Part shown: positions 25,768 through 32,498 of the stretch, one piece after another
Position numbering within the stretch: position 1 is the first letter of the stretch
How the letters are laid out: each line of letters opens with the position of its first letter
Origin: Paenibacillus sp. FSL R7-0204
Lineage (GTDB): Bacteria > Bacillota > Bacilli > Paenibacillales > Paenibacillaceae
Direction of reading: 5' to 3'
NCBI RefSeq assembly: GCF_038002225.1
Contig: NZ_JBBOCA010000001.1
Span: 310,001 to 374,000 of the forward strand
DNA length: 64,000 bases
Notes under the pieces: model-generated
The model's input: only the letters and a program-made list of their open reading frames with translations
What the model was told of the DNA's origin: nothing
Database searches by the model: none
Translations under genes and position numbers: made by a program

Positions 25768-26406
25768 TTAGCGCCAAAAGGTAATTTCCTCGCTACCCAG
25801 GCGCACGGACTCATGGCCCTCATCTTTGGCCTTGCCGATGGATAAGATCATGACCGGAACATACCTGTGGTCGTCCAGATCAAAGGCGCTAACGATCTGA
25901 TCACGTTCAAAGCCTGCCATCGGATTGGTGTCATACCCATGAGCACGGGCTACCAGCATCAGTTGCATCGCGAATAAACTTGCATCAATTTTGGCAATTT
26001 CGATCTTTAATTCTCTAGGTATTTGCGGATACATGCTCAGAATTTGCGCAACCTGCTTGTCGCGTATGTCTTTGGGCATTTTTCCTTGCTCCACAGCAGT
26101 ATCATAGATTTTCTCTACATATAAATCGCTCTGCGTATCTCCCAAAATGATGAGCATCGCCGCAGATGTATCATTTTGCCGCGTATTGAACTGGACCAGA
26201 GGCCGAAGCTTGTCTTTCCCTTCAGGGGAGTGAACCACGATTATACGCCATGGCTGCATATTCGCAGAAGAGGGCGCAAGGCTTGCTTCTTGAATCATAG
26301 CGTGCAGCTCTTCCTCCGAAATTTTGACGTCCTCATCGTACTGTCGTATGGAACGGCGGCCGGTTAGAATGTTGACAAAATCATTATTTTGAATAGATTC
26401 CAGCAT
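25768..26406 (-). CDS. Nitroreductase-family oxidoreductase
   Basis: 212 residues, FMN-dependent nitroreductase fold: GRRSIRQYDEDVKIS, LAPSSANMQPWRIIVV and the C-terminal SIGKAKDEGHESVR. AAGGAGTGC precedes the ATG at 26406. It is divergent from a MerR-type gene and convergent with an HxlR gene, so either could regulate it. Expected to reduce quinones or nitro compounds with NAD(P)H. Only a 50-bp scrap of the equivalent gene survives at 10798-10850. Confidence 0.93.
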   Translation of the reverse strand: MLESIQNNDFVNILTGRRSIRQYDEDVKISEEELHAMIQEASLAPSSANMQPWRIIVVHSPEGKDKLRPLVQFNTRQNDTSAAMLIILGDTQSDLYVEKIYDTAVEQGKMPKDIRDKQVAQILSMYPQIPRELKIEIAKIDASLFAMQLMLVARAHGYDTNPMAGFERDQIVSAFDLDDHRYVPVMILSIGKAKDEGHESVRLGSEEITFWR

Positions 26407-26538
26407 AAATGCACTCCTTCTGATGTAACCCATTATTTTGACAGTAGTGCTGCCCCGGGTTATCATATTTTTATTTTGAACTATGAACCTTGGTTTATAG
26501 CAAATATAAATGAATGATTGATTTAGAAGGAGCAGAAT

Positions 26539-26898
26539 ATGAGAGCGAATGAAGTTTCCAGGCTGACGGAATTACCCATATCCACCTTGCGATTCTATGA
26601 ACGTAAACAGTTGATTCCCGAACAGTTTATTTCGAGGGATGAAAATAATTACCGCGTATACGATGAAGGAGTGGTCACCTATTTGCAGGATGTGAGAATG
26701 CTACTTACTTTAGGTTTAACGATCCAGGACTTAGTTTTACTTATCAATGAGAGCTCGTATATTAAGAAGGAAGCATTGGTAAAGGAGAAAATCAAAGAAA
26801 TCCAGGAGTTAGAAGCCAAGTTGAATGCATCCCAAAAGTTTTTGGGTGATGTGCTGGAGGGCAGAGCGCATTTTCAGACCGGATGTAAATCGCAGTAA
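26539..26898 (+). CDS. MerR-family transcriptional regulator
   Basis: 119 residues: helix-turn-helix (VSRLTELPISTLRFYERKQLI), wing (NNYRVYDEGVV) and a dimerisation helix (about 78-105). Only one cysteine near the C-terminus, so metal sensing is unlikely. AGAAGGAGCAG precedes the ATG. Divergent from the nitroreductase gene, a usual place for its regulator; the intergenic region is about 130 bp. Confidence 0.93.
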   Translation: MRANEVSRLTELPISTLRFYERKQLIPEQFISRDENNYRVYDEGVVTYLQDVRMLLTLGLTIQDLVLLINESSYIKKEALVKEKIKEIQELEAKLNASQKFLGDVLEGRAHFQTGCKSQ

Positions 26899-27145: not shown

Positions 27146-28573
27146 TTAATGAGTCCTTTCAAGACGACGGCCATTGATAAACCAACTTGGCACCAAAACA
27201 AGAATTGTGAGAATACATTCAATCCCAAAAACCGTTTGCAAACCGGCAACAATACTGTGCGTTCTATCTTGAATCGCAGCGGGATCAGGTGAATGGTGAA
27301 GATAACGATTGGCTCTGGATGACATGATGCCGACGAACAAAGCGATGCCAATTCCCCCGGCAATCTGTTGGAGCGTATTGTAGATGGCTGTGCCGTGGGG
27401 GACCAGGTGACGCGGAAGCTGATTCATTCCTGCTGTCTGAGCCGGCATGACGACAAACGATATGCCTAAGAATAATAGGACATGATCGAACAGAACGGAG
27501 CCTCGGGTTGTATCGCTATCGATACCGGCAAACAGCCACAGTGATAGGGCGATCATGAGCAGTCCGGGCATTATGACGAATCTCGGCCCGAATTTATCGA
27601 ACAATTTTCCCGTTACAGGCATCAGTATTGCGTTCAAAATACAGCCTGGCATCAGAAGTAACCCTGTCCCGAAGGCCGTTAACTGCATCACATCCTGCAT
27701 ATAGATCGGCAGCAATGTCGTGGTGGCGAATAAAACCATCATGAGCACCACTATCAATACAGCTACCAAAGAAAAAGCGGGATACCGGAATACGGAAAGA
27801 TCAATCAAAGGCTCTTTAATTTTGAGTTGCCGCCAAATAAGTAAGAGCAAGAAGAGCCCGCCTATAGCAATCAAACTGTAACTCCCAGGACTAGCCCCGA
27901 CACCGGTCTGGCTAAAACCGTAGGTGATAAAACCAAACCCGATGGTTGACATCACAATGGATAGAAGATCGACCCGTGGTTTTGTTATTTCTGTAACATT
28001 CTTTAAATTTATGAATGCATAAATAATTGAAAACAACACGACAGGAATCACCATGTAGAACAGCCACCGCCAGTCCAAGGTATCGATAACCAAACCTGAC
28101 AAAGCCGGTCCGATGACTGGGGCGACCATGATGACAAGCCCCATGAGACCCATGGCAGCCCCCCTGCGTTCTGGAGGATAGAGGGCAAGAATTGTATTCA
28201 TCATCAGCGGAATCAATAATCCTGTCCCGCAAGCCTGAACAACCCTGCCTATCAGCAAGACTTCGAATCCAGGGGAGACTGCACACAAGCAGGTACCTGC
28301 TAAAAATAACGCCATTGCGGACATAAACATCCGGCGAGTCGTGAACCATTGCTGCAGCAATGCGGTCACCGGCACCAGTATGCCGATCATCAGCATATAA
28401 CCGGTAGATAACCATTGTATGGTTGAAGCGGTAACGTTGAACTCACGCATTAATCCGGGAAAAGTATTAGTAAGTAAATTTTCGTTAAGGAACGCAATAA
28501 ACGCACCGATGAGCAGGGCGGCTAGCATCGCCCCACTCTTCATTCTGCTTGTCTCTTGAACCTGTTCGTTCAT
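27146..28573 (-). CDS. DHA2-family MFS multidrug exporter
   Basis: 475 residues with about 14 membrane helices. Family motifs include NENLLTNTFPGLMREFNV in helix 1, WLSTGYMLMIGILVP, GRVVQACGTGLLIPL and the motif C region VAPVIGPALSGLVID. DHA2 proteins (EmrB/QacA/LmrB type) export drugs with proton antiport. The ATG at 28573 follows GGAGGTGGAAG. No regulator is adjacent; the drug range is unknown. Confidence 0.93.
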   Translation of the reverse strand: MNEQVQETSRMKSGAMLAALLIGAFIAFLNENLLTNTFPGLMREFNVTASTIQWLSTGYMLMIGILVPVTALLQQWFTTRRMFMSAMALFLAGTCLCAVSPGFEVLLIGRVVQACGTGLLIPLMMNTILALYPPERRGAAMGLMGLVIMVAPVIGPALSGLVIDTLDWRWLFYMVIPVVLFSIIYAFINLKNVTEITKPRVDLLSIVMSTIGFGFITYGFSQTGVGASPGSYSLIAIGGLFLLLLIWRQLKIKEPLIDLSVFRYPAFSLVAVLIVVLMMVLFATTTLLPIYMQDVMQLTAFGTGLLLMPGCILNAILMPVTGKLFDKFGPRFVIMPGLLMIALSLWLFAGIDSDTTRGSVLFDHVLLFLGISFVVMPAQTAGMNQLPRHLVPHGTAIYNTLQQIAGGIGIALFVGIMSSRANRYLHHSPDPAAIQDRTHSIVAGLQTVFGIECILTILVLVPSWFINGRRLERTH

Positions 28574-28628
28574 CTTCCACCTCCAGAGAATATTCATTAC
28601 CAAATCTTCACCTGTCTGATTGTGCAGA

Positions 28629-29058: not shown

Positions 29059-29193
29059 ACTGTGCCGGTTCATCAATCAGAGTAAATCCGCTATCGCGAA
29101 AAGCTATGACCAATCATGCTTTTTACATATAACCTGCATTCTTTGCCCTCATGCTATACTCAGTACACTAAAAAGTTGTAAGGAGATGTAGCG

Positions 29194-31755
29194 ATGATAC
29201 CCTTTCGCAATGATCATGTAGGCAGCTTCCTGCGTCCTGCGAACTTAAGCCAGGCGCGTGAACAATATAAAGCAGGCAACATCACATATGAAGCCTTAAA
29301 AGCGGTGGAAGATCAAGAGATTATCCGGATTATTGAGAAGCAGAAGGACAATGGCGTATTCGCAGTGACGGATGGGGAATTCCGCAGAAGCTGGTGGCAT
29401 TTTGACTTTCTGGGCGGCCTAGACGGCGTAGAGCTGTATGAGGAGATCGACGGGCCCAAGTTCCATAATATGCAGACCCGTAAGGGTGGCATTCGTGTGG
29501 TGGGTAAAGTAGATTTCTCCAGCCATCCCTTTATCGGGCATTTTGAGTTTTTGCTAAAGCATGCAGGTGACGCCGTAGCGAAGCAAACCATTCCAAGTCC
29601 CAACATGCTGATCTACCGGCTGGAGCCTGGGGCTAATAGTTATAACGACCGGGAGCATTTCCTTCAAGATACGATTGCGGCGTACCAAAAAGCCATTCAA
29701 GCGTTCTATGATGCCGGATGCCGGTACCTGCAACTGGATGATACAGCATGGGCAGACCTTTTCTCAGAAGCGGGTCACGATAAGCTGCGGGCAAAGGGTC
29801 TGGAACCGGCGGAAGAGCTCAAGATCATGCAGCGCATGATTAACGAAACCTTGGCTCATAAACCGGTAGACTTAGTTGTGACGATGCACATTTGCCGGGG
29901 GAACTATAAATCCAACTACTTCTCAACCGGCGGCTATGATTACGCTTCTGAGGTCATTTTTGGCGGCTTAGACGTAGATGGCCTATTCCTGGAATTTGAT
30001 GATGAGCGTTCAGGCAGCTTCGAGCCCTTGAAATATGTGAACCGGCCGGATTTGAAAATCGTGCTGGGTCTGCTCACATCCAAAACAGGCGAACTAGAAG
30101 ATAAAGAGCATATTAAAGCCCGGATTGCCGAAGCAGCAACCTATGTGCCCCTTGAGCAGCTGTGCTTGAGCCCGCAATGCGGATTCTCCTCTACAGAGGA
30201 AGGCAATATTCTTACGGAAGAACAACAGTGGCGCAAGCTTCGTTATGTGAAGGAAATTGCCGAAGAAGTGTGGAAGTCAGACCAAGAGACCGTTGTTGTG
30301 GAGGCCTTCATTAATGGTCAGAATGTACCCTCCCTTTCGCAGTCAGCCAAAGAGAATCCGGCGAAACCGGCTGAAATCGTAGGCTATTTCCCTGTCACTA
30401 CGAAGGAACAAGCGGTGGAAGCGATTGAAGCGGCGGCAGAAGCTTTTAAAATATGGAAGAAGACCTCGATTGATGAACGTATTACCCGGATGCGTAAGGC
30501 AATAGAGAAGATTAGAGCAGCGGAGAATGAAATTGTCCATCTGCTGTCCAGAGAGCATGGCAAGCCCCTATATGATGCCCATGGTGAGATTTATGTCTCG
30601 TTAATGTGGATGGAGTTCGCTTGTAATGAAGCTGCATCCGTTCTACAGGAAGAGGTCCAGGAGCATGATCAAGGTAAAACCATCCTGTCCTATGATCCAA
30701 TGGGTGTGGTGGCAGCGATCAGTCCATGGAATTATCCGATTGCGTTATCTACGATTAAAATTGCTCCTGCCTTACTTGCGGGCAATACGATTGTGCTCAA
30801 ACCGAGTCCGTTTGCGCCACTGGCGGCGGCGAAGGTGGCAGAGCTGATCGCAGGTGAGTTCCCGGCGGGTGTCATCAATGTCGTTCATGGGGATGCGGAT
30901 GTGGGCGTTGAGCTGACGAGTAATCCTCTTGTCTCCAAAATCGCCTTCACAGGCGGAACCGCAACAGCCAAGCACATCATCAAAGCGGCTTCGGAAACGA
31001 TTAAGGATATGACGCTGGAGCTGGGCGGCAATGATGCGGCGATCTTCCTGGATAGCTTTGATGTTCAAGATGAGCGGGCCATGCGCCGGATTGTTATTTC
31101 TAACTTCCTGACGACAGGCCAGATTTGTATGATTGCCAAGCGTGTATACGTACACCGTTCTATCTATGATGCTTTTGTTGAAAAATATATCGAGGCGGCT
31201 AACCGCTGGATTCGCATCGGTGATCCCTTTGATGCCAATACGACAGTAGGTCCGGTGAATAACCTGAAGCAGAAGAATTACGTGCAGGGTCTGATTGAGG
31301 GTGCACGCCAGCGCGGAGCTAAGGTCATTCCGCTCGGCCAAATTCTGGATCAGCAGCGGTTTGAACAAGGGTATTACCTGCAGCCTACGCTTGTTCTGGA
31401 CTGCGATTACCATGATCCTATTGTGGTGGAGGAGCAGTTCGGTCCTACCGTTCCGATTCTGCCCTTTGACGATGTGGAGCAGGTGATTCATCTGCACAAT
31501 GAGAGCATCTATGGATTGACGAGCTCGGTGTGGGGGCAAGAAGAGGAGGCCATCTTGGTCGCACGTCAGCTCGAAGCGGGAACGACCATGATCAACACGG
31601 CTGCTGTGCAGGGGCTCGATGTCCGGTTCCCGTTCGGCGGCTTCAAGCAGTCCGGTATCGGCCGTGAATACGGCGCAGAGGGCATCCGTACGTATACAGA
31701 GCTGCATGTGATCAATGTTCCGAAGACACTGGATCTTCCTTATATCCCAGAGTAA
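29194..31755 (+). CDS. Fusion of MetE-like zinc methyltransferase domain and aldehyde dehydrogenase
   Basis: One uninterrupted frame of 853 residues. Residues 1-362 are a cobalamin-independent methionine synthase-like (MetE C-terminal/YxjG) barrel with the full zinc set: H232 and C234 (MHICRG), E267 (FLEFDD) and C329 (SPQCGF). Residues about 368-853 are a complete aldehyde dehydrogenase: SPWNYP at 511, K537, FTGGT at 586, general base E610 (LELGG) and nucleophile C646 (GQICM). Both active sites look intact. MetE relatives transfer methyl or alkyl groups to thiols; ALDH oxidises aldehydes. The fusion suggests a thiol-linked substrate passed from the first site to the second, which is inference. 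A clear AAGGAGATG site precedes the ATG. Confidence 0.9.
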   Translation: MIPFRNDHVGSFLRPANLSQAREQYKAGNITYEALKAVEDQEIIRIIEKQKDNGVFAVTDGEFRRSWWHFDFLGGLDGVELYEEIDGPKFHNMQTRKGGIRVVGKVDFSSHPFIGHFEFLLKHAGDAVAKQTIPSPNMLIYRLEPGANSYNDREHFLQDTIAAYQKAIQAFYDAGCRYLQLDDTAWADLFSEAGHDKLRAKGLEPAEELKIMQRMINETLAHKPVDLVVTMHICRGNYKSNYFSTGGYDYASEVIFGGLDVDGLFLEFDDERSGSFEPLKYVNRPDLKIVLGLLTSKTGELEDKEHIKARIAEAATYVPLEQLCLSPQCGFSSTEEGNILTEEQQWRKLRYVKEIAEEVWKSDQETVVVEAFINGQNVPSLSQSAKENPAKPAEIVGYFPVTTKEQAVEAIEAAAEAFKIWKKTSIDERITRMRKAIEKIRAAENEIVHLLSREHGKPLYDAHGEIYVSLMWMEFACNEAASVLQEEVQEHDQGKTILSYDPMGVVAAISPWNYPIALSTIKIAPALLAGNTIVLKPSPFAPLAAAKVAELIAGEFPAGVINVVHGDADVGVELTSNPLVSKIAFTGGTATAKHIIKAASETIKDMTLELGGNDAAIFLDSFDVQDERAMRRIVISNFLTTGQICMIAKRVYVHRSIYDAFVEKYIEAANRWIRIGDPFDANTTVGPVNNLKQKNYVQGLIEGARQRGAKVIPLGQILDQQRFEQGYYLQPTLVLDCDYHDPIVVEEQFGPTVPILPFDDVEQVIHLHNESIYGLTSSVWGQEEEAILVARQLEAGTTMINTAAVQGLDVRFPFGGFKQSGIGREYGAEGIRTYTELHVINVPKTLDLPYIPE

Positions 31756-31832: not shown

Positions 31833-32498
31833 ATGAAGAAAAAGAAGATTGCTTGTTTACACGCCCACTATTCAAATATCCAGTATATTCAAAACGCTCT
31901 TACCTCTGATGAGTTGGAATTGGTTCATTTTGTGGATCCTGGTTTGATGAGTAGAATTACATCAGATAAAAATTTCGATGAAGGACAAGCCAAAAATAAA
32001 GTCATCGAACAAATAGAATGGATATCACAAGCAAATGTTGAGGCTATTCTTATCACATGTACTAATTATATTGCTCTTCTTGAAGAAAACCGGCTACATA
32101 CATCTATTCCTATAATAAAAATCGATGAGCCTTTCTTTAGTTCGGTCTGCAGTATTACAGAACCACAAGTTCTATTATTCACTAATCCAGCAACCGTCGC
32201 AGGGACAATGAGCAGGCTTAATGAATTTGCTTCTATCCAGGATAAGCCAATTCATATTGAGGCACGTGTCATAGAGAATACATTTGAGCTAATCATGCAA
32301 GGTAAAAATGAGCAATACGTTGAAGAATTATCAAAGTACATAAAGGGGATACTTGCATCAGAAAAAAACAAGAAAATTTCTGTTGCACAATTATCTATGG
32401 TGGAATCAGCCGTTAAAGTTGAGCAAGAGTTAAATGTAAAAATCGGGAATCCGTTGGATTCACTGATAATACATTTCGAGAGCTTGTTGCTCAACTAA
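31833..32498 (+). CDS. Asp/Glu racemase-superfamily protein
   Basis: 221 residues with the racemase-like alpha/beta fold: ILITCTNYIALLE carries one catalytic-type cysteine, but the second cysteine usual in racemases is replaced (AQLSMVES). Single-cysteine members include decarboxylases and isomerases (arylmalonate decarboxylase, maleate isomerase). TTAAGGAGATAAAATC precedes the ATG. It starts 77 bp after the MetE-ALDH fusion with no terminator between, so the two may act in one pathway. Confidence 0.75.
   Translation: MKKKKIACLHAHYSNIQYIQNALTSDELELVHFVDPGLMSRITSDKNFDEGQAKNKVIEQIEWISQANVEAILITCTNYIALLEENRLHTSIPIIKIDEPFFSSVCSITEPQVLLFTNPATVAGTMSRLNEFASIQDKPIHIEARVIENTFELIMQGKNEQYVEELSKYIKGILASEKNKKISVAQLSMVESAVKVEQELNVKIGNPLDSLIIHFESLLLN

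Follow-up and report, generated by a model that had tools for sequence, protein, structure and literature searches.

Recent Fusion of a YxjG/YxjH-Type Methyltransferase-Like Gene with an Aldehyde Dehydrogenase Gene in a Small Clade of Paenibacillus

The Fused Gene and Its Neighbors

The window, that is, the whole stretch of 64,000 nucleotides of Paenibacillus sp. FSL R7-0204 which was analyzed, carries on its forward strand a gene of 853 codons plus stop (29194–31755). It starts with ATG, has no internal stop, and is preceded by a ribosome-binding site recognized by its sequence, AAGGAG (29180–29185, +), which ends 8 nt 5′ of the ATG; an uninterrupted single frame with such a site had already been recorded in a first-pass annotation. 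The product is composed of a YxjG/YxjH-type zinc homocysteine-methyltransferase-like domain (residues 1–360; 29194–30273, +), a junction of 15 nt (residues 361–365; 30274–30288, +), and an aldehyde dehydrogenase (ALDH) domain (residues 366–853; 30289–31752, +).

The first half was assigned from PRK06520, 1ypx_A, and an alignment with the organism's own MetE. In detail, PRK06520 (NCBIfam) matches residues 3–360 with 473.5 bits, above its cut-off of 313, and Meth_synt_2 (Pfam) matches residues 152–335 (49 bits vs. a cut-off of 21). The equivalog cut-off of PRK06233 (NCBIfam) is missed (417.5 vs. 576 bits). By sequence, the nearest solved structure is 1ypx_A (457 bits). The folate-binding N-terminal domain PF08267, which is present in the separate MetE of this genome, gave no Pfam match in the fusion. 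The YxjG and YxjH proteins of Bacillus subtilis are presumably members of PRK06520, and we take the first half to be a methionine-synthase-like zinc methyltransferase of this type.

The second half matches Aldedh (PF00171) over residues 385–838 (466 bits vs. a cut-off of 23), and its nearest solved structure, again by sequence, is 8yen_A (315 bits). Among the 25 of 51 NCBIfam matches listed, it stays under the cut-off of every ALDH model. For instance, both the betaine-aldehyde dehydrogenase model TIGR01804 (349.7 vs. 668.6 bits) and the succinate-semialdehyde dehydrogenase model TIGR01780 (357.1 vs. 646.35 bits) are missed. We take this half to be an aldehyde dehydrogenase by family.

Residues H232, C234, E267, and C329 of the first half align with the zinc ligands (H, C, E, and C) of the MetE encoded in this genome and are invariant in the 30–31 rows which have a letter at these positions (alignment A2, 42 rows). 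Likewise, the ALDH catalytic residues N513, K536, E609, and C645 are invariant in the 25 rows of A2 which have a letter there. The first-pass annotation had named the zinc set correctly, but its ALDH pair E610/C646 is in fact E609/C645.

An Asp/Glu-racemase-like gene (31833–32498, +; PF01177 with 28 bits, under the cut-off of 31) follows 77 nt downstream. It adjoins the fusion in five of the six fused genomes described below (not in G067). Ten split loci, of which three span 5.5 kb only, were compared, and the gene did not appear in any of them; it probably lies outside the unit of the fusion. On the opposite strand, positions 27146–28603 encode an efflux permease of the DHA2-type MFS (EmrB subfamily, 334 bits vs. 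a cut-off of 230), which scores 446 bits with the LmrB lincomycin-efflux model, below its cut-off of 800. A nitroreductase family gene and a divergent MerR-family regulator are located side by side at 25768–26898.

Distribution of Fused and Split Genes

In the search of the genus, the uninterrupted 853-codon frame was present in 6 of 100 genomes, this genome included, and the five other fused genes are 94–98% identical to that of the window. The six genomes share the same frame and the same junction, which refutes a sequencing or assembly artefact; nothing was found in favor of such an artefact, and this explanation is practically excluded. The first-pass proposal of a genuine single-chain fusion of the two families is therefore upheld.

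The search of the family covered 394 genomes, of which 73 gave matches with E values of 1e-135 or below; two candidates were scored per genome, so that some loci may be missed. Among these 73 genomes, 6 carry the fusion, 51 have adjacent split pairs, and in 16 there is a single half or the halves are not linked; the same tandem order, fused or split, is thus found in 57. Seventeen of the split pairs appear as one match which spans two genes and contains stops, whereas 33 appear as two adjacent matches on the same strand. In the remaining pair (genome G217, locus L118), the first half was unscored in the search and the two-gene junction was read directly. The sequence of the junction was read in 38 of the 51 pairs, and the ALDH frame of the other 13 has at most 608 codons, too short for a fusion. 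Further fusions were considered in G183, G214, G220, and G221, which have open frames of 882–935 codons, and were rejected when reading of the junction showed stops. Two separate genes in relatives had been named in the first-pass annotation as evidence against the fusion; they do exist in these 51 genomes of the family, but the six genomes remain fused. The tandem order is kept across several genera although the flanking genes change. Paenibacillus sp. SZ31 (L053) has, besides the split pair, another ALDH of this family about 4 kb downstream.

The nearest split genomes (G043, G078, and G083) show how the two genes may have been joined. In these, the stop of the first gene is followed by a ribosome site, an ATG, and an ALDH starting with MTIQADQETV. 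The fused genes run from EVW(K/E) directly into (A/S)(D/E)Q, and their junction is 42 or 43 nt shorter (15 nt in the window vs. 57–58 nt). Judging from these junctions, the fusion most likely arose by the loss of about 42 nt which held the stop, the ribosome site, and the ALDH start.

Outside the family, 398 genomes drawn from the class were searched with two candidates scored per genome; 41 had a match, and no linked halves were listed. The fusion is real and of recent date, and in the genomes searched it is restricted to a single small clade.

The two halves also occur apart. Genome G233 keeps the first half with its promoter and has no ALDH match in 8 kb, and G194 keeps the first half with only the first 45 ALDH residues present in 4.5 kb. 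Conversely, G227 has the ALDH, and the 12 kb which were read there do not contain the first half. The ALDH of G232 seems to be frameshifted, perhaps through an assembly fault. In other genera, ALDHs of 68–72% identity have no first-half gene within the stretch of the locus examined, and their neighbors vary. Either half is found alone and either has been lost, which is an indication that the link between them is not obligate.

Phylogeny and Selection

In the DNA tree, which was built from 61 rows (48 of them different) with the junction left out, the six fused rows form one clade (support 100/99) nested among the split pairs, with one change of state. The fusion therefore most likely arose once. 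In the protein tree, 15 first halves of the pair type form one clade (98 SH-aLRT) among the stand-alone ones, with P0121 inside it.

Synonymous divergence (dS) among the six fused genes reaches 0.38. In the 15 pairs among them, dN/dS is 0.03–0.14 for residues 1–360 and 0.045–0.15 for residues 373–853. These low values indicate that both halves have been under purifying selection since the fusion. The 12 junction codons give ratios of up to 1.09, with too few changes to judge.

Promoter Region and Methionine Signals

A conserved block of 73 bp upstream of the fusion gene (29090–29162, +) ends in an extended −10 element, TGCTATACT, with TATACT at 29155–29160. It is conserved in fused and split pairs and aligns free of gaps in 21 distinct upstream sequences (28 loci), under a score limit which left out low-scoring loci, for instance those of Saccharibacillus; the sequence further upstream differs. 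L152 is the only stand-alone relative which reaches this limit over the whole block. The core of the promoter has a single occurrence in this genome.

Within the block, 63 nt before the −10, lies a decayed methionine-box-like site of 17 nt, TATCGCGAAAAGCTATG (29092–29108, +), with three mismatches to TATAGYTNNNARCTATA. By itself, this site is at chance level, being equalled in 49 of 500 shuffles. Thus, the argument for a methionine box in the window is one of homology and spacing, and control of the CmhR/MtaR kind may be lost here.

A box which has no mismatch to the relaxed pattern and precedes an extended −10 by exactly 63 nt is found in the stand-alone relatives L152 (TATAGCTAAAAGCTATA) and L153 (TATAGTTTAAAGCTATA) and in L160 (TATAGTTTAAAACTATA), a Priestia plasmid gene which is 55% identical and placed directly after a LysR gene. 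The box of L026 reads TATAGTTTTAAGCTATA, and an extended −10 was not found after it. None of the 500 shuffles in each of these four loci matched the quality of the box. The boxes of L024, L025, and L026 are without TGNTANACT downstream, unlike those of L152, L153, and L160. Regarding the split pairs, the box of L039 (one mismatch) was equalled by 1 of 500 shuffles and that of L036 (two mismatches) by 6. At the −63 position, most split pairs of Paenibacillus have one or two mismatches, the fused clade three (G084 four), and the Saccharibacillus group three to seven. None of the regions upstream of ALDH genes has a box with fewer than three mismatches.

Sixteen relatives outside the pairs were examined for both the box and a SAM riboswitch. 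Six of them (L152, L153, L160, L026, L024, and L025) have the box with at most one mismatch, in two (one from Listeria and one from Priestia) the SAM riboswitch takes its place, and eight (L018–L023, L027, and L002, the paralog in this genome) have neither. The Rfam scan gave no match in the window or in five pair loci. A guanidine-I riboswitch is located just 3′ of one stand-alone relative of the first half, in a different genome of the genus (L020:2738–2836).

In Streptococcus pneumoniae, the CmhR consensus box TATAGTTTSAAACTATA (S = G, C, or A), a verified activator site, activates metEF, folD, and others (PMC5359408). The L160 site fits this consensus. In the genome of the window, a LysR protein 52% identical to the one adjacent to L160 is encoded directly beside the first-half paralog, and no other protein of this genome matches the LysR of L160 with an E value of 1e-20 or below. 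Boxes with one mismatch occur at three genomic sites, fewer than in the control with the reversed pattern (three vs. four per strand), and no regulon was drawn from them.

Based on these comparisons, we infer that the promoter of the fusion derives from one under methionine control. The methionine box lies in a promoter block shared with stand-alone relatives, and for the first half this points to methionine synthesis and not to epoxide or coenzyme M chemistry. Hence the epoxyalkane/coenzyme M or bacillithiol chemistry suggested in the first-pass annotation is disfavored. Epoxyalkane:coenzyme M transferase shares the zinc-bound thiolate fold with the relatives of MetE. An enzyme of that kind would join an electrophile to a thiol, and the ALDH would clear the resulting aldehyde. 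We consider this very improbable. Only the zinc fold which they share speaks for it; the redox-sensitive cysteine of B. subtilis YxjG, which is thiolated under allicin and HOCl stress (PMC6943732), bears on reactivity and not on function. On the contrary, the family which matches best is the methionine-synthase-like PRK06520, and signals of the methionine type (the box in six and the SAM riboswitch in two of the 16 relatives, with neither in eight) point elsewhere.

Origin and Possible Function of the Fusion

The explanation which we consider probable is that the bifunctional protein resulted from one recent in-frame deletion between long-standing tandem genes, with halves more likely linked by a shared physiology than by an obligate two-step reaction. 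A single in-frame deletion would have joined the tandem methyltransferase and ALDH genes. As predicted from its domains, the first half, which is without the folate-binding domain, would convert homocysteine to methionine with the help of a methyl donor. The second half would be a common type of aldehyde dehydrogenase dependent on NAD(P), presumably under the same promoter. In the fused chain both active sites are retained at a ratio of 1:1, and a channel between the halves has probably not been created. The genome carries a full-length MetE and a MetH besides the fusion, so that the need for one more methionine synthase is not obvious, which counts against this explanation.

The conserved tandem order suggests a shared physiology, such as a common transcription unit, whereas the losses, together with the occurrence of each half by itself, speak against an obligate succession of reactions. 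The interpretation of the first-pass annotation is supported in part, its two-step route without release being hypothetical: the conserved adjacency favors some functional link, but not an obligate one, as the halves are separable in G233, G194, and G227. The adjacency in 57 genomes could nevertheless reflect a tighter link than we propose.

Such a link would exist if both halves catalyzed consecutive steps of one pathway, with the ALDH forming or using up a product of the methyltransferase, for instance if the ALDH oxidized an aldehyde to the acid which methylates homocysteine. This is rather unlikely in our opinion. The same order in 57 of the 73 genomes despite varying flanks, and the maintenance of the fusion over a dS of about 0.35 with neither half decayed, speak for it. 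Yet each half is solitary in other genera, the first half persists without an ALDH in G233 and beside a remnant of 45 ALDH residues in G194, and by general chemistry the transfer of a methyl group to a thiol yields by itself no aldehyde. A version with betaine is further weakened, because in the alignment I521 of the fusion stands opposite the tryptophan of 4-trimethylaminobutyraldehyde dehydrogenase, to which we attribute an active-site role. Quite unlikely is the more specific case of a dedicated folate-independent unit of methionine salvage, in which an acid formed by the ALDH would itself be the methyl donor for homocysteine, or would release it, and the fusion would be one bifunctional enzyme.

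The join may also have been neutral, with unrelated genes of one transcription unit fused by a harmless deletion. The almost zero-length linker left by one deletion, the restriction to one clade, and the separability of the halves in other lineages are all in agreement with this, but the tandem order is conserved in several genera while the flanks change, and a neutral join is unlikely.

When the preferred explanation of a deletion between linked genes is set against known systems, the YxjG/YxjH family (PRK06520; 1ypx) is similar to the first half in its single C-terminal-type MetE domain, its H/C/E/C zinc set, the absence of the folate domain, and the methionine-type control signals of several relatives. 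It differs in that the relatives examined stand alone. The separate ALDH genes of Paenibacillus, Saccharibacillus, Lysinibacillus, Alicyclobacillus, and others (PF00171, about 490–500 aa) are 62–94% identical to the second half among the matches listed and keep the catalytic residues in the 25 aligned rows; they have their own start codon and, outside the pair, no constant neighbor was seen.

The four families of core methionine synthases are, we assume, those named MesA–D. As described in PMC7005905 and PMC7857596, these folate-independent enzymes (four families in the latter) are likewise relatives of MetE without folate-binding domains, and they are likened here by description. In a term search, PMC7857596 does not mention YxjG, YxjH, Bacillus, or PRK06520, and PMC7005905 does not mention YxjG proteins. 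Direct donors, betaine or DMSP, are reported for another methionine synthase family, that of Phaeobacter Bmt (PMC12366255), and in Lactobacillus paracasei yxjH is cotranscribed with luxS and has a methionine T-box upstream (PMC6004538).

In the open-access literature searched, experimental proof of the methyl donor of YxjG/YxjH was not found, nor was a description of the present pairing, in line with the first-pass remark that it is undescribed. The case is a new fusion of already known families and of modest interest. The ALDH partner, which accompanies and is even fused to one branch of YxjG/YxjH, is a concrete clue to the donor or the metabolic setting of these proteins, and the fusion itself is a clear example of two genes becoming joined, captured among very closely related species.

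Other Two-Domain Proteins and Distant Homologs

In the protein searches, full-length fusions of Paenibacillus were found neither among the best 120 of 221 matches to the whole protein nor among the best 120 of 132 matches to residues 290–480. The six known fusions are missing from these matches, and close relatives may therefore be left out of the collection. In a further search, first-half proteins of 61–83% identity, many from other Bacillales, rank below those of Paenibacillus among the 120 matches listed.

Two other proteins have both Pfam domains. P0062 (864 aa) is apparently frameshifted in its middle, and P0085 has the domains in the opposite order. A wider link suggested by these proteins was not accepted as evidence, as six actinobacterial records with the P0062-type ALDH have no first-half gene within about 6 kb. 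The ALDH P0038 and the first-half protein P0137, each 79% identical, are located on contigs 15965 long and are perhaps a further, more distant pair.
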